Assembly (NCBI RefSeq): GCF_000238775.2
Contig: NZ_AFEJ02000001.1
Coordinates: 2,046,001-2,110,000 of the forward strand
From: Acaryochloris sp. CCMEE 5410
Lineage (GTDB): Bacteria > Cyanobacteriota > Cyanobacteriia > Thermosynechococcales > Thermosynechococcaceae
Direction: 5' to 3'
Length of the DNA: 64,000 bases
Shown piece after piece: positions 26,578 through 38,063 of this stretch (within the stretch, counting starts at the first letter, position 1; the number at the start of each line of letters is the position of its first letter). Under the pieces are notes generated by a model. That model had not been told where the DNA came from. It did not search any database and worked only from the letters and a program-made list of their open reading frames with translations. Both the position numbers and the translations under genes were made by a program.

Positions 26578-26889
26578 ATGGCAGCTATTTCCTTAAGCGT
26601 CTCTACAGTCAAGCCTTTAGGTGATCGCGTATTCGTCAAAGTCAGTGCTGCAGAAGAGCAAACTGCAGGTGGCATTATTTTGCCCGATGCGGCCAAAGAG
26701 AAGCCTCAGGTAGGTGAAATTACCGCTGTTGGCCCAGGTAAGCGGGGTGACGATGGATCTCGCCAAGCCTTAGATGTCAAAGAAGGCGACAAAGTTCTGT
26801 ATTCCAAGTACGCCGGTACAGATGTCAAGCTCGGCGGTGAAGAGTATGTACTGCTTTCTGAAAAAGATATTTTGGCGATCGTCAACTAG
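26578..26889 (+). CDS. groES: Co-chaperonin GroES
   Basis: A 103-residue lid subunit of the GroEL chaperonin. It shows the PLGDRVFVK start and the mobile-loop region [19 protein letters not shown], as well as [19 protein letters not shown] near the C-terminus. The GGAGGAGCCGGT-like leader includes TGGAGGAG about 7 bases before the ATG. It is the first gene of the CIRCE-controlled groES-groEL operon. Confidence 0.98.
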
Positions 26890-26991
26890 ACAAGCGTAAT
26901 ATCATCCTTCGATTCGTTCTGCCCATTCAACTGGGCAATTTTATTTTGTCTAACTTCGCTGTTACTCCTTTAAGTTTGAGGTTGAGCTTCC

Positions 26992-28623
26992 ATGGCTAAA
27001 CGCATTATTTATAACGAGAATGCTCGTCGCGCCCTTGAGAAAGGGATGGATATCCTATGTGAATCTGTTGCGGTGACATTAGGCCCTAAAGGTCGCAATG
27101 TTGTTCTAGAAAAGAAATTTGGTGCCCCTCAGATCGTCAATGATGGCGTCACCATTGCTAAGGAAATTGAACTAGAAGACAACATTGAGAACACAGGGGT
27201 TGCCTTGATTCGTCAAGCGGCTTCCAAAACGAATGATGCCGCAGGAGATGGCACCACAACAGCTACGGTCCTTGCCCATGCCATGGTCAAAGAAGGGATG
27301 CGCAACGTAGTTGCGGGTGCGAATGCAATTTCCCTCAAGCGTGGCATTGAGAAAGCTGCTGGCTTTCTCGTAGAGAAAATCGCTGAGAATGCTCGCTCTG
27401 TTGAAGATTCCACTGCCATTGCTCAAGTGGGAACGATTTCTGCTGGTAACGACGATGAAGTCGGCCAAATGATTGCCAATGCGATGGATAAAGTCGGCAA
27501 AGAAGGCGTTATTTCCCTAGAAGAAGGCAAGTCCATGACCACCGAATTGGAGGTCACTGAAGGGATGCGCTTTGAGAAAGGCTATATTTCTCCTTATTTC
27601 GCGACTGACACAGAGCGGATGGAAGCTGTGCTAGACGAGCCCTACATCCTACTGACCGACAAGAAAATCACCCTCGTGCAAGATTTAGTGCCTGTACTCG
27701 AGCAGGCTGCACGGGCAGGTAAGCCCTTGTTGGTGATTGCTGAGGATATTGAGAAAGAAGCCTTAGCCACCCTCGTCGTCAACCGTTTACGGGGCGTGTT
27801 GAATGTAGCTGCCGTAAAAGCACCTGGCTTCGGCGATCGTCGTAAAGCCATGCTGGAAGATATTGCAGTCTTGACTGGTGGTCAGGTGATTACCGAAGAT
27901 GCGGGTCTCAAACTAGAGACTGCCAAGCTAGAAATGATGGGACAAGCTCGTCGCATCACTATCACGAAAGACACCACTACCCTTGTTGCCGAAGGGAATG
28001 AGGCCGACGTCCAAGCTCGCTGCGAGCAAATTCGTCGTCAAATGGATGAAACCGAATCTTCCTACGATAAAGAAAAGCTGCAAGAGCGCTTGGCTAAATT
28101 GGCCGGTGGTGTTGCCGTGATCAAAGTGGGTGCTGCAACTGAAACTGAAATGAAGGATCGGAAGCTCCGCCTAGAAGATGCCATCAACTCCACTAAAGCC
28201 GCTGTTGAAGAAGGGATTGTTCCCGGTGGCGGGACCACTTTGGCTCATCTTGGTCCTCAACTTGCAAGTTGGGCTGCAGATAACTTAACTGGCGAAGAGC
28301 TGATTGGTGCCACTATCGTTGAACGGGCCTTAACTGCACCTCTAAAGCGCATTGCGGAGAATGCTGGCCAAAATGGTGCCGTTATCGCTGAACGCGTTCG
28401 CGAAAAAGAGTTCAATGTTGGTTTCGATGCGTCAGTGAATGAGTTCACGGATATGTTTGCCGCTGGCATTGTCGATCCTGCAAAGGTGACTCGTTCTGCG
28501 CTGCAAAATGCTGCTTCTATTGCTGGCATGGTCCTCACTACTGAGTGCATTATTTCTGATAAGCCTGAGCCCAAGGAAAATGCTCCTGCTGGCGCTGGCA
28601 TGGGCGGAGACTTCGACTACTAG
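26992..28623 (+). CDS. groEL: Chaperonin GroEL (operon copy, GroEL1 type)
   Basis: A 543-residue chaperonin with the ATP-binding blocks [14 protein letters not shown] and [15 protein letters not shown] and the signature [14 protein letters not shown]. It lies 102 bases after groES in the same operon. Its tail is short (AGMGGDFDY) and lacks the long GGM repeat of E. coli GroEL. Cyanobacteria usually carry a second groEL elsewhere; this linked copy is the one expected to work with GroES. Confidence 0.98.
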
Positions 28624-28699: not shown

Positions 28700-29308
28700 T
28701 TATTGGAAATAAAAGGCCACAAAAATGTGAAACCCAAGCATGACAGAAAACATACTGACCAGGATAATGTGGGTTGATAACCAAATCGCACGCAGTTTGC
28801 GAATGAGAGGCCCCTTTGAAACCTTGGGGAACCGCTTAGCTAAACCCTGCCAGCTTTGAGGCACCAACCCAAAGTATTTCTGGGAAGATTCTAAAATACC
28901 CGTTTCTGCAACCACGCCCACTAGGGCCGATAGGGCAACACCAAAGAACACCCAGAGAAAGAGTGCATTAAAGTTATCGCCAACCGCACCACCGGTATGG
29001 AGCAAAACAGTGGCTACTAAAGCGACACCAACAAAAATATGCAAGCTGCGCCACAACAGAATAGAACCTGGCACTGCAATTTTCCACCGGCGCCCTCGTT
29101 TACGCAGTGCGAGGGCCAGTTCAAAGAAGACAAGGGCCAGAACGACAAACCCCGTAATCAGCTTGTACAGATCCGTTTGTAGAACGATCAAGGCATTGAA
29201 GTTGCGATCGCGCAGCAACGGAATATAAACCCCACTTAATGCAAAGGGGGTCAAAATAGCTGCGACCACTAACGTCAGAATAATAAGAGTTGAAAACCTA
29301 GGCTTCAT
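28700..29308 (-). CDS. Membrane di-haem b-type cytochrome-like protein
   Basis: A 202-residue protein with about five membrane helices. Two helices each carry a His pair 14 residues apart: His90 with His104 (SLHIFVGVALVATVLLH) and His180 with His194 (STHIILVSMFSVMLGFH). That spacing is the classic pattern for two stacked b haems in a four-helix bundle, as in cytochrome b561 or ferric-reductase-like quinol oxidising modules. No exact family is recognised. It ends the run of cytochrome genes, so it may pass electrons between the quinone pool and the multihaem cytochromes encoded upstream; this is inference. A terminator-like hairpin separates it from the preceding gene, so expression may be partly independent. 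Confidence 0.75.
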   Translation of the reverse strand: MKPRFSTLIILTLVVAAILTPFALSGVYIPLLRDRNFNALIVLQTDLYKLITGFVVLALVFFELALALRKRGRRWKIAVPGSILLWRSLHIFVGVALVATVLLHTGGAVGDNFNALFLWVFFGVALSALVGVVAETGILESSQKYFGLVPQSWQGLAKRFPKVSKGPLIRKLRAIWLSTHIILVSMFSVMLGFHIFVAFYFQ

Positions 29309-29366
29309 AGCTTAACTAGGGTGATAGGACTTTGGAGCATCGGTTCACCCCCTCGAAGTCGGAAAA

Positions 29367-29417
29367 ATGCTCTATAGGGATCGACTGGTGGCGCGATCCC
29401 TTTCCCCCATAGAGCAT
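29367..29417 (-). terminator. Two-part hairpin with T tract (terminator or attenuator)
   Basis: ATGCTCTAT (29367-29375) pairs with ATAGAGCAT (29409-29417), and AGGGATCG (29376-29383) pairs with CGATCCCT (29394-29401), with a small bulge. On the minus strand the outer stem is followed by TTTTT. It lies between the monohaem lipoprotein gene and the b-type cytochrome gene. Confidence 0.75.
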
Positions 29418-29446
29418 CACTTACCTTTGGGTAGTGCTATTGCGAC

Positions 29447-30100
29447 CTAAGCACCTTCCAAAGGAATATTGATCATGATGCCGCCCATCACGTCATCCAT
29501 TTTGAAGACCTTATCGGGATAGCGTTCTTTGTGTACAGGGTGGGTGTTATGACAAGTAATACAGGCTTCTGCTACTGCCTTATCGGGATAGAGGGCCGAA
29601 AAATATTTCTTACCCCCTACTTCCTGGAACTCCTTGAAAGGTTCTCCCGTTTTCTCAACCTCTTGAATGGCTTTTTTCTCAAAATCATTTTTAGGACCTT
29701 GAGCGTCGTTAATATACCAAGTTGAGATCAGGTTATAGGTAAAAGCAGTGTCTGCTTCGGAGGCAATTTCAGACCCGAGCCGAAACATTTGTGCAGGCAG
29801 GGGAATACCATCACTGCTTTCCCAACCTTCGGTCGCTTCTATTGCCAGAACACCATCAGCTTTGGGCTTACCTTCGAGTTTTTTGGCTCGGTTAACCACA
29901 TGCTTGGTGTAGGCCGTTCGGTCTGAAGCTAAAGCAGTATGGATATAATCAGCTACTAATTCAGGCTTTACCCCCCCAGTGGCTTGGGATTCGGCACCCC
30001 CACTACAGGCCACAGCGGTGAAACAAATGGCTGCAGCCAGAGCAAAAAAGGCGAGGGTTCTGGAACGCAACGTTCTGAACCAATTTCGTGTCAAATTCAT
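29447..30100 (-). CDS. Tll0287-like (DUF3365) monohaem c-type lipoprotein
   Basis: A 217-residue exported protein. The N-terminus is basic and hydrophobic and ends in the lipobox TAVAC, giving Cys32 as the lipid anchor. One c-haem site, CITCH, lies at Cys180-His184. The fold matches the Tll0287/DUF3365 domain, a PAS-like haem domain found alone or in sensors. ATG 30100 is chosen because GAGGAG lies about 9 bases upstream; the frame is open to 30127. It sits 70 bases downstream of the hexahaem cytochrome gene, so it is likely in the same transcript and may be an electron carrier or redox sensor on the outer face of the membrane. Confidence 0.85.
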   Translation of the reverse strand: MNLTRNWFRTLRSRTLAFFALAAAICFTAVACSGGAESQATGGVKPELVADYIHTALASDRTAYTKHVVNRAKKLEGKPKADGVLAIEATEGWESSDGIPLPAQMFRLGSEIASEADTAFTYNLISTWYINDAQGPKNDFEKKAIQEVEKTGEPFKEFQEVGGKKYFSALYPDKAVAEACITCHNTHPVHKERYPDKVFKMDDVMGGIMINIPLEGA

Positions 30101-30170
30101 CTTGTGTCTCCTCTCAATGAGATGCATCTGATTCGTTTTGATGGGATAGATTAGTCTTCGATGGGATAGA

Positions 30171-30953
30171 TTACTCTGATTTGGAATTGCCCGACCGTTG
30201 TTGTTCTAGCGCACGCACCATTTTCAGAGTGTCCATCGATAAGGTAGGGGGTCGGGCAAAATTCGATTCCACTAAGTCATCATCAAAAATGCTGTTGTAG
30301 GCAAATTCCATGCCGTGGCAATTCATACAGACCTCTTTCACCATGCGATCGCGGGGCAGTAACGTGAAGGTATTGTTGTGGTTGACCATTACCGTCCCCG
30401 ATGCCGATGTTTGTCGGGGCAGGTGGCAAGTGGCACAAGTGGTTGAAGCAGTGGAAGGGCGGGGAAGTGCCCCCTCTTCTTGCAGTAATTGAGCATGCCG
30501 GGAGTTCTGATAATTCAGCGAATGGGTGTCCTTGTGGCAGGTCAAACAAGAATCAACCGAGGCGGGTAATGTCTTCACTGAATGAACATCATGACAAGCA
30601 TTACAGTTCATCTGTTTATCATGGGCGGCTGCCTGCATCGGCAGGTGGGCCAAAGCAGGGGTGAGTGCCGTTTGTCCTTCTAGTAAGCGAATACCATGTT
30701 TACCCAGCAAAAAGGTATCCACTTGCGCTTCATGGCAAGATTGACAGCTTTCATGATTGGGTCGCTGCAGCACCTGTTTCGTGGATTTATTCTGGTGACA
30801 GCTCGAACAGTTGACATCGGCTAAGGCATGGGCACTTTGGGACCAGCTTTGGTTAATAGACTGAAGCTGAGCCTGATCCACCGCCCAGGCAGAAACCGTC
30901 AACCCATTCCAAAGCAGCAATAACAACACCCCTCTTAGAAGCCAACTCCTCAT
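30171..30953 (-). CDS. Hexahaem c-type cytochrome
   Basis: A 260-residue exported protein with a signal peptide (cleavage probably after SAWA near residue 24). Six CXXCH sites are visible: Cys49 CSSCH, Cys70 CQSCH, Cys117 CNACH, Cys136 CLTCH, Cys173 CATCH, Cys209 CMNCH. Extra His residues (for example NHES, KHGIR, HDVHS, SRHAQ) could be distal ligands. The C-terminal part around CMNCHGMEFAYN recalls octahaem hydroxylamine-oxidoreductase-like proteins, but this resemblance is by eye. Its ATG overlaps the TGA of the pentahaem gene by 4 bases (ATGA), so the two are translationally coupled. It could be an electron shuttle or a small reductase; no catalytic haem with a non-His ligand is evident. 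Confidence 0.87.
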   Translation of the reverse strand: MRSWLLRGVLLLLLWNGLTVSAWAVDQAQLQSINQSWSQSAHALADVNCSSCHQNKSTKQVLQRPNHESCQSCHEAQVDTFLLGKHGIRLLEGQTALTPALAHLPMQAAAHDKQMNCNACHDVHSVKTLPASVDSCLTCHKDTHSLNYQNSRHAQLLQEEGALPRPSTASTTCATCHLPRQTSASGTVMVNHNNTFTLLPRDRMVKEVCMNCHGMEFAYNSIFDDDLVESNFARPPTLSMDTLKMVRALEQQRSGNSKSE

Positions 30954-31597
30954 GCTCGCCCTCCAAGAAGCTCTTTCCCCAAGTCAGGCTGAGGCGGTGC
31001 CGTCAGTTCAGGCTTAACGGTACGGGCTGGTAATACTGGCTTCGGCAACATATCCGCCTGACCCATACTCTGACGTAAAAAGCCCGTTGAAATACTGCGA
31101 TGGTCGTGGAAATTATGACAACCAGCTGTCCAACATCCATCCGGTGAGAACCCTTTATGACTGGCCAATTCCCCTTGAATAATGCCTTCATGGCAAATCA
31201 TGCAGAGATCTGGTTTGAGATGCACCCCGCGATCAAACATATGCACATGTTCGTTGTGGCAAGTGGTGCACGTTAATACCTCCAATTTCTCTAATTCAGC
31301 AGCCCAGCGCAGATCTCGGAACTTTTTGGGGCCATGGGCATCAGTGGCCATTTCGGCCTCATGGCAGCGCATGCACGTGTCATTACTCACCGGTTTAAAC
31401 CCTTCATGACACGAGGCACAGGACGCCTCAAATAGGAGATGCCCATTAGACGTTACGCCCGGCAGAAAGATCGTTTTGTGGTCTAAAGCAAAGGCAGCCC
31501 CCAACCAACCCATCAAAATTAAACACAGCACAATCACGGTATTTCTGACATTAAATAGAGCCGATAGACTCAAAAAAGATTTTTTCGTTTTGGCCAC
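30950..31597 (-). CDS. Pentahaem c-type cytochrome with one CX4CH site
   Basis: A membrane helix (TVIVLCLILMGWLGAAFAL) near residues 20-38 anchors or exports a haem domain. Counting from a GTG start at 31597, haem sites are Cys60 CASCH, Cys75 CMRCH, Cys110 CTTCH, Cys132 CMICH, and Cys155 CWTAGCH, a CX4CH site as in some tetrahaem cytochromes c3. The frame runs on to 31651, overlapping the globin gene; the GTG at 31597, 20 bases after the globin stop with AGGG before it, is preferred and gives 215 residues. The C-terminal tail is Pro-rich (KPVLPARTVKPELTAPPQPD). It is coupled to the hexahaem gene by an ATGA overlap. NapC/NrfH-like or c7-like folds are possible. Confidence 0.85.
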   Translation of the reverse strand: MAKTKKSFLSLSALFNVRNTVIVLCLILMGWLGAAFALDHKTIFLPGVTSNGHLLFEASCASCHEGFKPVSNDTCMRCHEAEMATDAHGPKKFRDLRWAAELEKLEVLTCTTCHNEHVHMFDRGVHLKPDLCMICHEGIIQGELASHKGFSPDGCWTAGCHNFHDHRSISTGFLRQSMGQADMLPKPVLPARTVKPELTAPPQPDLGKELLGGRA

Positions 31598-31616
31598 TAC
31601 AATTGCCCTAAAAAAT

Positions 31617-33086
31617 TTAGACCAGCAAGATAGCGATAATGACCGCAACAATGCCGCCCCCCGCCAGTCCTAATAACAGTCCTGTTGGCCGATCCGTTTC
31701 CGCCGCCTCACTAGAGAAGCTGCTCGGTGAGGAGGATGCGGGGGGAGCTGAATTCAAATCTAAATCGGCTTGGGAATAGTCAGCACCATCTAACATGATG
31801 GTGCTGATGGCCCCATAGGCATCCACCCAGGCTTGTTTGACCTCATCAGTCCACGCTGAGCCCAGAAATTCCTCAAAGGTTTTGAGGAGTGTATTACCCA
31901 CCAACGGGTAATGCTCCGGTAAGGCCCCATATTTCACATGTCGAGCACCCAGCCCCGTAAGGGCATCCCCCAAGGCGTCTGGCTTCCGCAAGTTTTCAAC
32001 GACCAGAACCAGAGATTGCAAGAGCTTCTTGCTTTGTTGCTTTATATCCGTATTCGCGAATAAGGGTTGGGCAGCCGGGTAATCGGTAAACAAGTTTTCG
32101 TAAAAGCGATCGGCAAACTCATTGGCCACGGGCTTCACTTGAGCAAAGCTCGTTTCCAGTAGCTCAACTTGCAAGCCAGAATCATCAGGCGACGCTGGCG
32201 TTTCGGGTTCGAGCTGAATATCTGCTTCGGAATAATCTGCTCCATCCAACATAATCGTGCTAATCGCACCATAGGCATCTACCCAAGCCTGCTGGACCTC
32301 ATCTGTCCAAGCCGGTCCTAAAAATTGCCCAAAGGTCTTGAGCAGGGTATTACCCACCAATGGGTAATGCTCAGGTAAGGCTCCATATTGGACATGACGA
32401 GCCCCCAGGCCGGTGAGAGCGTCTCCTAGGGCATCTGGCTTGCGCAGATTCTCCACCACTAGAACCAGGGATTGCAGGAGCTTCTTGCTTTGTTGCTTTA
32501 TATCCGTATTCGCAAATAAGGGTTGAGCAGCCGGGTAATCGGTAAATAAATTCTCATAGAAGCGATCGGCAAATTCATTGGCGACCGGCTTGACTTGGGC
32601 AAAGCTCGTTTCTAATAGCTCAACTTGTAACCCAGAATCATTAGGTGGCGCTTCGGGTTTGAGTTGAACGTCAGCCTCTGAATAATCGGCACCGTCCAAC
32701 ATGATGGTGGTAATTGCACCATAGGCATCTACCCAGGCGGTTTGAACCTCCTCAGTCCATGCATCCCCTAAGTATTCATCAAAGGTTTTGAGTAAGGTCG
32801 CCCCCACCAATGGGTAATGTTCGGGTAAAGCCCCATATTTCACATGTCGGGCCCCCAGCCCTTTGAGGGCATTACTCAACGCATCCGGTTTGCGCAAATT
32901 CTCAATTACTAGCACCAAAGATTGTAAAAGTTTGCCCCCTTGCTTCTCCATATCTGTCCCCTCGAAAAGGGGTTTGGCCTCTGGGTAATCTGTGAATAAG
33001 TGGTTATAAAAACTTGAAACAAATTCATTAGCTTGAGGTTTTATTTTCTCGAAGCTACTTTCAAGGATTTCAACTTGTAAGGTCAT
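31617..33086 (-). CDS. Tail-anchored protein with three tandem globin domains
   Basis: A 489-residue protein made of three globin domains (about 1-138, 153-288, 304-440), a Ser/Pro-rich linker and a C-terminal membrane helix (LLLGLAGGGIVAVIIAILLV). Each domain keeps proximal His (81, 231, 383), B10 Tyr (27, 177, 329) and E7 Gln (49, 199, 351). This Tyr/Gln distal pair is that of flavohaemoglobins and single-domain globins, which turn over NO with O2. No reductase domain is present. There is no signal peptide, so the globins should face the cytoplasm. Domains 2 and 3 are almost identical in protein but differ at many synonymous sites. ATG 33086 has AGGT upstream; the frame is open to 33164. 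It precedes the two multihaem genes, 20 bases apart. Confidence 0.9.
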   Translation of the reverse strand: MTLQVEILESSFEKIKPQANEFVSSFYNHLFTDYPEAKPLFEGTDMEKQGGKLLQSLVLVIENLRKPDALSNALKGLGARHVKYGALPEHYPLVGATLLKTFDEYLGDAWTEEVQTAWVDAYGAITTIMLDGADYSEADVQLKPEAPPNDSGLQVELLETSFAQVKPVANEFADRFYENLFTDYPAAQPLFANTDIKQQSKKLLQSLVLVVENLRKPDALGDALTGLGARHVQYGALPEHYPLVGNTLLKTFGQFLGPAWTDEVQQAWVDAYGAISTIMLDGADYSEADIQLEPETPASPDDSGLQVELLETSFAQVKPVANEFADRFYENLFTDYPAAQPLFANTDIKQQSKKLLQSLVLVVENLRKPDALGDALTGLGARHVKYGALPEHYPLVGNTLLKTFEEFLGSAWTDEVKQAWVDAYGAISTIMLDGADYSQADLDLNSAPPASSSPSSFSSEAAETDRPTGLLLGLAGGGIVAVIIAILLV

Positions 33087-33651
33087 AGATTTACCTATTG
33101 AGGATATGGGGCTCAGAGGCTCATGCAAAAGATTAAAGCAATCGATCGATAAAGCTACACTCAAAGCCTGGATATTTAGTGAATGAATTTAGCTCAACCA
33201 TCTCTCCCTTAAGGGAATAAGGGAACAGTTGTTTATTCTGTCTAAGGTTGCAAAAAAGAGTAATTATGCACCTCTTAAAAACATTGATTTCAATTTTGGC
33301 TAGGTCGTTTTGGCATTCCTCAGAAAAGAGATAGAAAGCTAAATGTACAAGATGCGATCGCAACACTCATTCTCATCAGTCTCGCAGCGATATCAAAACC
33401 ACAACAAGCGTGACAACGCCTTCACCCAAAGCGCTGTATTGTTGAAATTTTGACATTCATAAACAGCATTAAGCTGCAGATTCAAAATATGCCTTCAAAG
33501 GTAAAAAATAATTACCACTGGAGTCGTATCAATTAATACAATTAACACTATCTAAAAGTCGATAATTACATAATTTCAATGCAAAAATTACATTGAAAAT
33601 TACGGCTTCTTTAGCAAAGAATGAGTCCAACAAAAAGTATAAAAATATACA
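33087..33651. other. 565-base AT-rich region between globin and pentapeptide genes
   Basis: No ORF looks like a gene. It should hold the globin-operon promoter. Notable sites are the TAAGGGAA repeats (33205-33225) and an inverted repeat TTTCAATG / CATTGAAA (33574-33581 and 33591-33598), which may end the pentapeptide transcript. One HIP1 octamer lies near 33354. Confidence 0.5.
33205..33225. promoter_or_regulatory. Candidate operator upstream of the globin gene
   Basis: A 12-bp perfect palindrome TCCCTTAAGGGA (33205-33216) overlaps two direct copies of TAAGGGAA (33210-33217 and 33218-33225). It lies about 120 bases before the globin start. It could bind a regulator of the cytochrome-globin genes; I do not recognise the motif. 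Confidence 0.35.
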
Positions 33652-34578
33652 TTATTTAGGGACATTTAAAGCCCCCCGCTTTCGCAGTAGTACTTTCTGC
33701 TCACTGGATAATCCTTGAGCATCAGTAAAGATTGCGCCAGAGACAATGGCACTAGAAAAGTCCACGTTGTGAAGTTGAGTGTTTTCCAAATTTGCATCCC
33801 GAAAATCTGTCTGCTCTACTTGAGCACCGGTTAAGTCAACCTGCTCTAAATGAGCACTATAGAAAGAGGCATGGTTCAATCGGGCATCGCGCATACAGGT
33901 TTGCCCTAAGAACACATGATCAAAACTGGCCTGCTGTAGTTGGGCTTCCTGCAAATTGACCTGCTCTAAGTTACTGCCAATGACATCAGCACCCGTAAAA
34001 TCTGCTTTTTGCAAGTTGGACTGGACAAAGCGAGATCGTTCTAAGCGGGCGTGGGCGAAAATGGCTTCTGAGAATTGCCCCTGACTCAAATTGGCATCAT
34101 TGAGCTTCGCCCGGCTGAAGTTAGCCCCCTTGAAATCCCCCTGAGACAGATCAGCTCTGATTAAAATGGCATCTCGGAAGGAGGCATATTGGCCAGTGGC
34201 TTCTGCCAAATCCACCGACTCCAAAATGGCTGTGGCCGCATTCGCTTGATTCAAATGGGCACCATGCAATTTGAGCTTAACCCCATGAATCCCCATCAAA
34301 TTAGCCGAGTCCAGGCGCGCAGAGGTAAATTGAGCTTCCGTTAGAAAAGCATCCTGCAAGCTAATTCCCGTCAGCGTCGCAAAGATTAAGATCGCTTCCG
34401 TAAAATCGGCTCGATTACAGGAGGCCTCGGATAAATTTGCCACCCGTAAATAGGCTTGAGGGAAATGACCATCATCCAGGGAGAATCCCTGCAAATTGAT
34501 ATTGCTGAGTTCTGCTCCTTGTAAAGAAATGCCTTGTTGAACTTTCGTTTGCACCTCTTCCGGTGTGAGAACGGCCAT
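33652..34578 (-). CDS. Pentapeptide-repeat protein
   Basis: A 308-residue protein built almost wholly of A(D/N)LxX-type pentapeptides (for example ANLSEASCNRADFTEA, ADLSQGDFKGANFSRA), which form a four-sided right-handed beta-helix. No signal peptide or membrane segment, so it is probably cytoplasmic. The function of most cyanobacterial members is unknown. It starts 39 bases after the ccsA stop on the same strand and is likely co-transcribed with ccs1-ccsA. Confidence 0.9.
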   Translation of the reverse strand: MAVLTPEEVQTKVQQGISLQGAELSNINLQGFSLDDGHFPQAYLRVANLSEASCNRADFTEAILIFATLTGISLQDAFLTEAQFTSARLDSANLMGIHGVKLKLHGAHLNQANAATAILESVDLAEATGQYASFRDAILIRADLSQGDFKGANFSRAKLNDANLSQGQFSEAIFAHARLERSRFVQSNLQKADFTGADVIGSNLEQVNLQEAQLQQASFDHVFLGQTCMRDARLNHASFYSAHLEQVDLTGAQVEQTDFRDANLENTQLHNVDFSSAIVSGAIFTDAQGLSSEQKVLLRKRGALNVPK

Positions 34579-34617
34579 CGTTTAGTTTTCCAATTGGTGG
34601 GTATAAGGGGGGGAGCA

Positions 34618-36318
34618 CTAAGCATCAGCAGTTTGCACTTCAGACACCGAGGGAGAAGCGCTGCGATGCTGCTGAGAACGATAGCGGAGAATGGTTGCCA
34701 GCACAAATAAGCTATCCATGCCGACCAAACCGGCGATCAGCACTGCAGAACCGCCCGTACCAAATCCATAGCTATGTAATCCTGTTCCCAGCACAAAATT
34801 AACGCCATACCAAGCCATCAGTACGGCATTAAACCCTAAGACACTGGCCACATTCATACCAAATTGTCCTAACCAACCCGCTAAACGACCATGAACAGGC
34901 GCTAAATAGCAAAGCAAGGCAATTAAAGCCCAGGTCTCTTTTGGATCCCAACCCCAAAATCGCCCCCAGGAAAAATGCGCCCAGATGCCGCCCAAAATAA
35001 TGCCTGTCGTTAGCAGCAATATCCCCACTTGAATGACGCGAGTATTAAGCCGGGACAGGGCGCTGGCGGTTGACCCTCCCTGGGGATGTCGCCAATATTG
35101 CACCAATGCCAAATGCCCTAATCCCATGGCCAAGGCAAAGCTGGCATAGCTAAGAGTAATCGTGGGGACGTGGATACTAAGCCAAAAGTTATCTCGCAAT
35201 ACGGGCACTAAGGGCTCAATACTGGGGTCCAAAACTGCAGGTAAACTATCGGCCAGCAGCAGGCACACAACGGCAAGGGGAGCCGCCGCGTACAGATAGG
35301 AACGGGCTCGGGTCTGTAGCTCAAAACAAAAGGCTAGGGCGGCAATCCCAAAGCCCACCCAAACCACGGATTCATACATATTGGTAACGGGGGGACGGCC
35401 TGCAATTTGCATGCGCAGACCAAAGCCAAAGGCTTGGATCAAGATGCCTCCGAGAAAGGTTCCCATGCCAGTCCAATACAAGTTAAAGCTGGGAACGAGT
35501 TGGCTCGTGAGGAGGGCCAGAAATGCGATTCCATATAGTTTCCAAGCTTTACCAAAAGGATGGAAGTGATTGAAAAAAGCTTCCCGTTGCAACGTGGCCA
35601 TCGCTGGATAAATCTCAGGACTTAGGTCTGCTAGGGACTGCTGCAATAGGGTCGCAGGCTCCGCCAAAGACTCTAAATCATCTCCCTGGGCTTGATACTG
35701 CTGGTTGAGCTGTTCAAAATGGGTCTGAATCTTGGCTGCCATCTCAGGCGGATAAAGTTGTTCAGCATCCGCAATGCCGACCCAAGTCCCTTTGATATCC
35801 ATGGGATGGGGCACCAGAGGCAAAGTTTGGCTGCCAACCGTATCCAACATTAAATTGAGGCGATCTTCGAGGGTTAATGCTTCTCGTTCATCTCGTGTCA
35901 GGGGTTGCTCTTGCAGCTGTTTGGTATGGGCTTGTTGCAAGATCAGACCCAAATCAGAATTGATCAGGGTAGAAAAGCTAAAGTGCTTTTGCTCCAAGGG
36001 CAGTCCCAATTGGGCCTTGAGGGGGCGATAGTTGACCAGCACAAAGGGCTCGTCATTCCAATCCCGGCTGTTGAGCCACAAAGACCAATAGGTTTGTGGC
36101 GCATCTAAAACCTCACCACTGGCCAGTTGATATCGCGATGACCCATGAATCGTGGCGACGGTTTCCCGGGCCACCGTATCTAAAGGTTTTTTGCGACCAT
36201 CCAGCTGAACAGCCAGGGTATCAATCGCTGTTTGGGTTGGGGGTTGCCATTGACTGATAGGGGTGACCGCCAAAGCCAACGCCAGACAGAGTCCCCATAA
36301 AAATTTCAGTTGATTCAT
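34618..36318 (-). CDS. ccsA: Enlarged CcsA-type cytochrome c haem-attachment protein
   Basis: System II haem delivery and attachment protein, 566 residues. The C-terminal 280 residues are the CcsA core with the haem-handling WWD motif (WGRFWGWDPKETWALI) and conserved His residues in LSIHVPTITLSY, IWAHFSWG and GTGLHSYG. The N-terminal half is an extra region: a signal-like helix followed by about 220 extracytoplasmic residues (DGRKKPLDTVARETVA). Ordinary cyanobacterial CcsA has only about 320-350 residues; the long form resembles CcsA of some anaerobic or multihaem-rich bacteria. Its ATG overlaps the ResB stop (TAATG), so the two are coupled. Position beside multihaem genes suggests a dedicated maturation role. 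Confidence 0.88.
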   Translation of the reverse strand: MNQLKFLWGLCLALALAVTPISQWQPPTQTAIDTLAVQLDGRKKPLDTVARETVATIHGSSRYQLASGEVLDAPQTYWSLWLNSRDWNDEPFVLVNYRPLKAQLGLPLEQKHFSFSTLINSDLGLILQQAHTKQLQEQPLTRDEREALTLEDRLNLMLDTVGSQTLPLVPHPMDIKGTWVGIADAEQLYPPEMAAKIQTHFEQLNQQYQAQGDDLESLAEPATLLQQSLADLSPEIYPAMATLQREAFFNHFHPFGKAWKLYGIAFLALLTSQLVPSFNLYWTGMGTFLGGILIQAFGFGLRMQIAGRPPVTNMYESVVWVGFGIAALAFCFELQTRARSYLYAAAPLAVVCLLLADSLPAVLDPSIEPLVPVLRDNFWLSIHVPTITLSYASFALAMGLGHLALVQYWRHPQGGSTASALSRLNTRVIQVGILLLTTGIILGGIWAHFSWGRFWGWDPKETWALIALLCYLAPVHGRLAGWLGQFGMNVASVLGFNAVLMAWYGVNFVLGTGLHSYGFGTGGSAVLIAGLVGMDSLFVLATILRYRSQQHRSASPSVSEVQTADA

Positions 36319-38063
36319 TATCCATCCTGAGGTGCAAGGGGCAGGGGAGATGGTTCAGCCGCGATCGGCTCAGTGGGTTGCTCCAACACCGCTGCCCGTT
36401 TTTTGAATAGGGTCGGGCCATAAAACATAACGCCAACCCCTAATACGGTCAGTAAGGCGCCACTCCAGGTCAAAGCAGTTACCCATAGGGGTTCCCGTTT
36501 AACTTGCAGAGTAGACTGGTTCAAATCGCCAGGATTCCAGGAGGCTTGGGCAATTTTCCATCCCTGATACCAGGTAGGATGATTCATCCAGACTGACCGT
36601 TTTTGAGCAGAGTCTCCCTGAAGATCTTCAATACGGATTTGGCTTGTCCACATGGCCACCGAATCGGTACCTTCATTCCGTTCAACAACAAACTCATCCA
36701 AACTCACCCGAAAGGGTAAAGCCAGCATGCGGGGGCCAAAGGCCGCCATTTTAGGGTGCGAACCATCGGCAATCAGTACTGAGTCTCCCCAGGTCAGCCA
36801 TTGCTGCCCATCCGCTGAAGCCACTTGCAACGCCGGAACTCCCTCAACACCAGGTAGAGCGGGAAGGCGCTCTTGGATCCGCTGTGCATGGGGAAGCCAG
36901 TCTGCCAGGGTGATTTTAAAGTCTGCCCAGCCCGGCTGAATCATTTGATCCATCTCCAAAGGCCCTGAGGTAAAAGACTTAGAGGAGCGGGCTGCATAAT
37001 AGAGCTTTTGATCGGCCACCACGACTCGGAAGTAATCGCTAGCCGGGGGCGGTGGGACTTGATATTCCCAGTCTAAATCCAGTAAGGCTTTATCCCCCGC
37101 TAAGATCGGCCCGGCTTGAGCAAAGACAAACCAACGTTCTTGCAGATCGGCCTGCTTCACTTCTACTTCTAAGGCTGGATTTCGCCAATCCTGAGACGTC
37201 GTGATCGGCTGATTCTGGTCATCTAAGCGAAAATCGGGCCACACGTTCAGTAGGTGAACCTGGATATCGTTAATAACGGCATCCTGACGACGTAAGTCAT
37301 CAATGGCCAACGGGGTATCTACGTCTCCCACCTTCATCAGCAGGGTTCCAGATTGGCGGGCTTGCCTTTGAGCTGGATCGGCCAAGAGCTGCTGGAGATC
37401 GGTTTGATTTACGGCTTGCCGCAGTTCCAGTTGGGCTGGCCCTAAATCCACCGTTTCAGCCATGGGCGATAACCACTGATCGAAGGTTTGACCCATGCGA
37501 TCGCTACTCAATACCAACCGCACAGCAGGATTATCTGAAACATTTCCTGCCCGATACTCAACAGTTTCAACAGAATTGTCGCTGTAGTCCAACAAGGTCA
37601 ACCCAGCAAATTGATGGGGTGAAATGACCTGGCCGGGTTTCACCATCACCGCCGCCTGCTGAACTTGACCTTGATCATCCATCACTTCTAAGAGTTCACC
37701 CTCGACCCGCACCAAATGGTTAGCAGGTTGATCTGTGCGCACCAGCAAGAGTCCTTCCACACCCAGGTGAATCACCGCCGCAGACCCTGCAATCAGTACA
37801 ATCAACCCCAAATGAGTCAGGGCAAAACCCACTTTTCGCGCCCCGCGCCAGGGATAACGGGAAAGGGTAGAGACGCCCAGATTGACCGCGAGCAGAAACA
37901 TCAAGGCCCCAAACCAAGGACTCTTATAGATCTGCTGCTGAACCACCAGCGATCCAACTTTACTTTCATAAAAGGTGGCCCAGATTAAAATACTTGCGAT
38001 CGCACCCAGTACTGGGACGGCCAGCTTAATAGAGCCCAAGAAGCGGACAAGTTTGGTGAGCAT
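36318..38063 (-). CDS. ccs1: Ccs1/ResB-family cytochrome c biogenesis protein
   Basis: A 581-residue membrane protein of the ResB/Ccs1 family, partner of CcsA in system II. N-terminal helices (IKLAVPVLGAIASILIWATF and WFGALMFLLAVNLGVSTL) are followed by a third (GFALTHLGLIVLIAGSAAVI), a large extracytoplasmic domain and a last helix near 540 (WVTALTWSGALLTVLGVGVM). GAGG lies 5 bases before the ATG. Canonical cyanobacterial Ccs1 genes are usually unlinked to ccsA, so this coupled pair may be an additional set; a genome search would settle that. Confidence 0.85.
   Translation of the reverse strand: MLTKLVRFLGSIKLAVPVLGAIASILIWATFYESKVGSLVVQQQIYKSPWFGALMFLLAVNLGVSTLSRYPWRGARKVGFALTHLGLIVLIAGSAAVIHLGVEGLLLVRTDQPANHLVRVEGELLEVMDDQGQVQQAAVMVKPGQVISPHQFAGLTLLDYSDNSVETVEYRAGNVSDNPAVRLVLSSDRMGQTFDQWLSPMAETVDLGPAQLELRQAVNQTDLQQLLADPAQRQARQSGTLLMKVGDVDTPLAIDDLRRQDAVINDIQVHLLNVWPDFRLDDQNQPITTSQDWRNPALEVEVKQADLQERWFVFAQAGPILAGDKALLDLDWEYQVPPPPASDYFRVVVADQKLYYAARSSKSFTSGPLEMDQMIQPGWADFKITLADWLPHAQRIQERLPALPGVEGVPALQVASADGQQWLTWGDSVLIADGSHPKMAAFGPRMLALPFRVSLDEFVVERNEGTDSVAMWTSQIRIEDLQGDSAQKRSVWMNHPTWYQGWKIAQASWNPGDLNQSTLQVKREPLWVTALTWSGALLTVLGVGVMFYGPTLFKKRAAVLEQPTEPIAAEPSPLPLAPQDG

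Follow-up and report, generated by a model that had tools for sequence, protein, structure and literature searches.

A conserved cyanobacterial cytochrome–globin cassette with its own haem-attachment pair and an NtcA-type promoter

Genes and haem sites of the cassette

The window analysed here is a 64,000-nucleotide stretch of DNA from Acaryochloris sp. CCMEE 5410. Eight open reading frames, all on the minus strand, were confirmed at the coordinates given by the original prediction. In order of transcription they encode a Ccs1/ResB-type partner of a split CCS system II (36318..38063), a long CcsA that corresponds to the C-terminal part of CcsBA made as a protein of its own, with an N-terminal region and a WWD domain (34618..36318), a pentapeptide-repeat protein of 308 aa (33652..34578), a protein with three globin domains and a C-terminal membrane tail (31617..33086), a pentahaem cytochrome c with an N-terminal hydrophobic segment (30950..31597), a hexahaem cytochrome c that is predicted to be exported (30171..30953), a monohaem Tll0287-like lipoprotein (29447..30127) and a b-type membrane protein (28700..29308). 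The Pfam scan returned ResB (E 2.6e-15), Cytochrom_C_asm (E 1.3e-31), Pentapeptide, three Globin stretches (E 1.3e-57), multihaem c families in both cytochromes and the Tll0287-like domain. The most likely start of the globin gene is the ATG at 33086 (489 aa; the longest frame begins at 33164), and the pentahaem protein likely starts with the GTG at 31597 (215 aa, the same as in locus L033; the longest frame begins at 31651). The pentahaem and hexahaem genes do overlap in an ATGA. Immediately downstream of the cassette, the opposite strand carries a groES-groEL pair (26578-28623), and groEL adjoins the cassette in the close relatives L033 and L034 too.

The pentahaem protein carries four CXXCH motifs and one CX4CH motif (CWTAGCH), the hexahaem protein six CXXCH motifs and the lipoprotein a single one, giving 12 c haems. 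Together with three globin haems and two b haems, the latter counted from four invariant histidines, this bore out the haem tally originally claimed for the locus. Homologues from other genomes have motif counts identical to those of the window (34/34 pentahaem, 33/33 hexahaem and 32/33 lipoprotein sequences, the single exception being cut by a contig end), and the haem-motif pattern is therefore far beyond chance. Five further histidines are invariant, along with the five motifs, in 56 pentahaem sequences; the 54 hexahaem sequences share the six CXXCH motifs and exactly six further histidines. The haems of both proteins look bis-His-ligated and electron-transferring, which would leave the globins, and perhaps the haem-Cache lipoprotein, as open sites. 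An AF2 model of the hexahaem protein was too poor for use (mean pLDDT 60).

The lipoprotein contains a PF11845 domain (E 5.8e-21; 75.9 bits against a cut-off of 24.1) with a CXXCH motif and belongs by these features to the Tll0287-like (sCache_heme) class. Its lipobox cysteine (C41) and its CXXCH are invariant, and no other cysteine is conserved. Tll0287/DUF3365 domains are Cache-type, and their fusions to signalling modules have NO-sensor properties (PMC12889525). This background, together with the linked pentapeptide-repeat protein, would suit a gas- or redox-sensing complex in which the haem-Cache protein and the globins act as detectors of NO or O2, the cytochromes fix the redox state and the output passes through protein contacts. 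We hold such a complex to be very unlikely, as the conserved cassette genes include no kinase, cyclase or regulator, a sensor would not need as many as 11 multihaem haems, and stand-alone haem-Cache domains looked redox-like, not NO-binding (PMC12889525).

For the b-type membrane protein, the original count of four histidine pairs held for the number of histidines and not for that of pairs: H90, H104, H180 and H194, invariant in 56 sequences, make two haem-ligating pairs (H90/H104 and H180/H194) with 14 residues between the partners. Each pair lies inside one long helix of the AF2 model (mean pLDDT 82.6). The window protein matched no Pfam or NCBIfam family above cut-off; weak matches to DUF4405 were found in 42 of 53 members (best 7e-6), and there were weak matches to Ni_hydr_CYTB too. 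Foldseek searches with the model gave nothing below E 0.2. The VIA-align matches were for the most part talin-like or other generic helical bundles, with cytochrome b561 at Z 8.9, and the fold search is thus uninformative. No solved relative of the protein was found by sequence.

TyrB10, GlnE7, HisF8 and PheCD1 are invariant in 105/105 globin domains from 57 loci, which is the residue set of flavohaemoglobin-type globins, and the structures closest to the globin are those of Hell's Gate globins, VHb and flavohaemoglobin. This NO-dioxygenase-type pocket fits NO chemistry; because the multihaem haems look bis-His-ligated, the globins would be the likeliest site of ligand chemistry. The number of globin domains in relatives ranges from one to five, and a hydrophobic C-terminal tail is present in 43/56. 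From this tail and from the lack of a signal peptide by eye we infer that the globins face the cytoplasm. Domains 2 and 3 of the window protein are 94% identical in protein and about 83% in DNA.

Distribution, gene order and co-inheritance

The pentahaem cytochrome, the b protein and the long CcsA, the last searched with its N-terminal region as query, are each present in 35 of 390 cyanobacterial genomes. The idea of a single system depended on homologues co-occurring elsewhere, and they do: 30 genomes have all three (pairwise overlaps 32, 33 and 32; union 38). Pairwise Fisher tests gave p ~1e-40 over the 390 genomes, a value that overstates the case because the genomes are related and not independent. 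Most of the mismatches trace to contig ends, and one to a locus that insertion sequences have wrecked. Scanning the GTDB species genomes for the pentahaem protein gave 56 cyanobacterial loci and weak matches only elsewhere. The maps of the non-cyanobacterial matches (L122-L129; 24-36% identity) lack the cassette, and the b-protein profile had zero matches in four genomes with such weak pentahaem matches; a search of plasmids for the b protein likewise gave zero. The acidobacterial loci L124, L125 and L126 differ from the cassette: they contain clusters of several multihaem proteins, which have 4 to 10 CXXCH motifs. In the scan with the pentahaem protein, Acaryochloris sp. IP29b is the closest, at 97%.

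Cassette hosts include Acaryochloris, Moorena, Leptolyngbya, Roseofilum, Xenococcus, Prochloron, Spirulina, Hyella and others, many of which are mat, reef or symbiont genera as judged from record titles. Such habitats, and the weak matches of the multihaem proteins to MtrC/MtrF- and DmsE-type families, would agree with extracellular electron exchange, in which cells in mats would trade electrons with their surroundings through the multihaem proteins and the globins would be accessory gas scavengers. This explanation appears unlikely to us: no beta-barrel porin gene for an Mtr-type outer-membrane conduit recurred among the conserved neighbours at the cassette loci, the globin is the fixed first gene, and the nitrogen control suggested by the promoter (see below) does not predict it. 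A porin for such a conduit could also be encoded elsewhere.

The 34 loci of the class search and the 56 loci of the scan keep one fixed gene order, namely globin, pentahaem, hexahaem, haem-Cache lipoprotein and b protein; the two sets overlap in part, and contig ends cut some of their loci. Many of these loci derive from draft MAGs, and the gene calls in the locus maps are mechanical. Ccs1 and CcsA usually adjoin the cassette, often divergently, and are side by side in most complete loci. A pentapeptide protein of near 308-aa length is linked to the cassette in most loci with sufficient flank. All eight predicted members are present in the window, but the prediction had missed three proteins found in relatives: a thioredoxin-like membrane protein (26/34 loci), a Rieske protein with a twin-arginine signal and a lipobox (19/34) and a ChaN haem-binding protein (11/34). 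In the window genus, Rieske homologues and a thioredoxin-like homologue sit elsewhere in the genome, outside the cassette. A separate single-domain globin occurs near the b-protein or thioredoxin gene at L042, L045 and L046, and also at L083, L086, L087 and L121; some loci of the Leptolyngbya/Halomicronema type are those with this extra globin.

Every one of the 23 cassette genomes searched has two CcsA genes and no more, the canonical gene and the cassette copy. As the normal CcsA is retained throughout, the cassette Ccs1–CcsA constitutes a private second pair. The cassette CcsA aligns to residues 405-925 of Helicobacter CcsBA (7s9y; E 1.5e-45), its WWD tryptophans and several histidines being invariant or nearly so in 45 homologues; His and Trp positions are also conserved in 46 Ccs1 homologues. 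The pair thus has the ResB and Cytochrom_C_asm domains, the WWD motif and the conserved histidines of a CCS system II haem lyase (CcsBA/ResBC). In genome G150 (locus L156), transposases occupy the place of the globin-to-lipoprotein genes, the pentapeptide gene is disrupted and an in-frame stop is found in CcsA, while the thioredoxin-like and b proteins are retained. This is joint decay of a cassette that is being lost. Near-perfect co-occurrence, fixed gene order, the second CcsA in 23/23 genomes and joint decay together give strong support to the proposal of one redox system with its own haem-attachment pair.

An NtcA-type promoter upstream of the globin gene

An NtcA-type box, GTATTAATTGATAC, lies upstream of the globin gene at 33526..33539 on the minus strand, in a position at which such boxes are conserved across the group, and is followed after N22 by a -10 box motif, TACCTT (33503-33498, minus strand). 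The canonical NtcA-activated promoter consists of GTA-N8-TAC and a -10 box about 22 nt downstream (PMC3898017), and the sequence signature of the NtcA regulon, with a TAN3T -10 box at that distance, is present here. In 39 of 56 de-duplicated loci, GTA-N8-TAC occurs in the 450 bp that precede the globin gene, where shuffling predicts 7.3 such loci; with the whole intergenic region taken, the count is 45/56 against 12 expected. These counts are non-independent owing to kinship among the loci. Unlabelled ORFs of the same loci, used as control, gave 27/306 against 30 expected. Only the N8 half-site spacing is enriched (other spacings 0-4), and the TAN3T box peaks at N22 (19 loci); both elements together precede 26/56 globin genes and 6/296 control ORFs. 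The testing of five motifs in the region preceding the globin gene does not put the enrichment in doubt. The window overall contains 10 GTA-N8-TAC matches against 5.2 expected, and therefore it is conservation, and not a lone site, that counts as evidence. A second box, GTATATTTTTATAC, just 3' of the pentapeptide gene (33637..33650, minus strand), is a single match that could be chance; it is common to the window and its close relative L033. The main transcription unit of the cassette probably starts at the NtcA-type promoter.

Sites of the FNR, CRP or Fur type did not reach appreciable counts in the region before the globin gene (FNR-like dyad, 2/56 against 0.7 expected), and no site for an NO-specific regulator stood out. 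Given the NtcA-type promoter, a role connected with nitrogen is more likely than oxygen sensing or extracellular electron exchange. The promoter could also serve the protection of nitrogenase from oxygen, and a globin of Nostoc, GlbN, has a link to nitrogen fixation. We regard this role as highly improbable and disfavour it for want of an association with nifD, which occurs in 17 of 38 cassette genomes versus 130 of 390 overall (p 0.15) and has no match in the window genome.

Proposed role and relation to known systems

We propose, at somewhat less than even confidence, that the cassette encodes a conserved, nitrogen-controlled cyanobacterial electron-transfer system in which a cytochrome wire feeds NO-dioxygenating globins. 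A more specific version, which we offer tentatively, is a membrane-wired NO dioxygenase that is induced by nitrogen limitation, has a transmembrane b/c chain in place of the flavin reductase and recaptures NO as nitrate. NtcA would activate the cassette when the cell has little combined nitrogen or has it in oxidised form. Together, the c-type proteins would form an extracytoplasmic electron pool, the b protein would move electrons across the membrane, and these electrons would keep the globins on the cytoplasmic face ferrous. The globins would then convert NO and O2 to nitrate for re-assimilation by the cell. The net result would be a flavohaemoglobin whose flavin reductase has been swapped for a membrane cytochrome wire. 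The split CcsBA-type lyase serves the cassette and is joined in most relatives by a thioredoxin-like protein and a Rieske lipoprotein. The function originally suggested, with quinol electrons passing through the b protein and NO or O2 handled at the globins, is plausible. We infer the electron path, the direction of electron flow and the NO chemistry from the gene set and its motifs.

Several observations count against this model. A cytoplasmic globin would draw its electrons from the opposite side of the membrane. The upstream region lacks a recognisable NO-specific regulator site, and NtcA also controls genes without a nitrogen-oxide role. In addition, we count against it the redox-like character of stand-alone haem-Cache proteins (PMC12889525) and the location of the Rieske and thioredoxin-like genes outside the cassette in the window genus. 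The NtcA-type promoter would also fit an electron safety valve, by which an over-reduced photosynthetic or respiratory chain under nitrogen limitation discharges through the cytochromes and the b protein to globin-bound O2; a transmembrane b protein, many redox haems, a Rieske protein in relatives and a globin pocket that suits O2 as well all agree with it. We judge it fairly improbable, as the conserved set has no proton-pumping or oxidase subunit and globins of this type are not known to be efficient O2-reducing terminal oxidases.

If the wired-globin proposal is true, the cassette would represent a new way of powering globin chemistry and would link nitrogen status to gas detoxification or salvage. 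Multihaem redox chains are not something for which oxygenic cyanobacteria are known, and this one, complete with haem-attachment machinery of its own and a nitrogen-control promoter, recurs in many genera of benthic and reef habitats. Its parts belong to known families, and no prior description of a system combining them was found in the open-access literature.

The b protein resembles diheme b-type proteins (DUF4405, Ni_hydr_CYTB, cytochrome b561) in its transmembrane bundle, four invariant histidines and weak profile matches, and differs from them in the lack of a Pfam match above cut-off for the window protein and in having two histidines 14 apart in each of two helices. The lipoprotein is like Tll0287 and DUF3365 haem-Cache proteins in its stand-alone PF11845 domain with CXXCH; unlike Tll0287, it has no conserved cysteine for Cys/His ligation as a distal haem ligand and sits in a cytochrome cassette. 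With Alternative Complex III the cassette shares membrane-associated multihaem electron carriers, and the hexahaem profile weakly matches ActA (E 2e-4); this identity was rejected, as neither ActB nor NrfD-like ActC/ActF subunits occur among the conserved neighbours. NrfA was rejected for the pentahaem protein, which lacks the CX2CK active-site haem (four CXXCH and one CX4CH in 34/34) and scores far below the cut-offs of NrfA models; some NrfA proteins have five CXXCH motifs (PMC12285233). Wolinella has dedicated CcsBA-type haem lyases, NrfI, CcsA1 and CcsA2, and the cassette resembles these isoenzymes in having a second CCS synthase for particular multihaem proteins, one of them with an unusual motif (PMC12285233). 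Unlike in Wolinella, CcsB and CcsA are split, and the unusual motif is CX4CH, with no CX2CK or CX15CH site. The cassette globins cannot be assigned to flavohaemoglobin, since Pfam detects no FAD/NAD reductase domain and the NO-inducible flavohemoprotein model covers the globin part only (228 against a cut-off of 432); NO dioxygenase activity is possible for single-domain globins that are paired with a native electron donor (PMC3820574). They share the globin family and the distal pocket (TyrB10, GlnE7, HisF8) with Hmp, VHb, Campylobacter Cgb and Hell's Gate globins. Unlike flavohaemoglobin and single-domain NO dioxygenases, they come as one to five tandem domains without the reductase, usually carry a membrane tail and are gene-linked to cytochromes.
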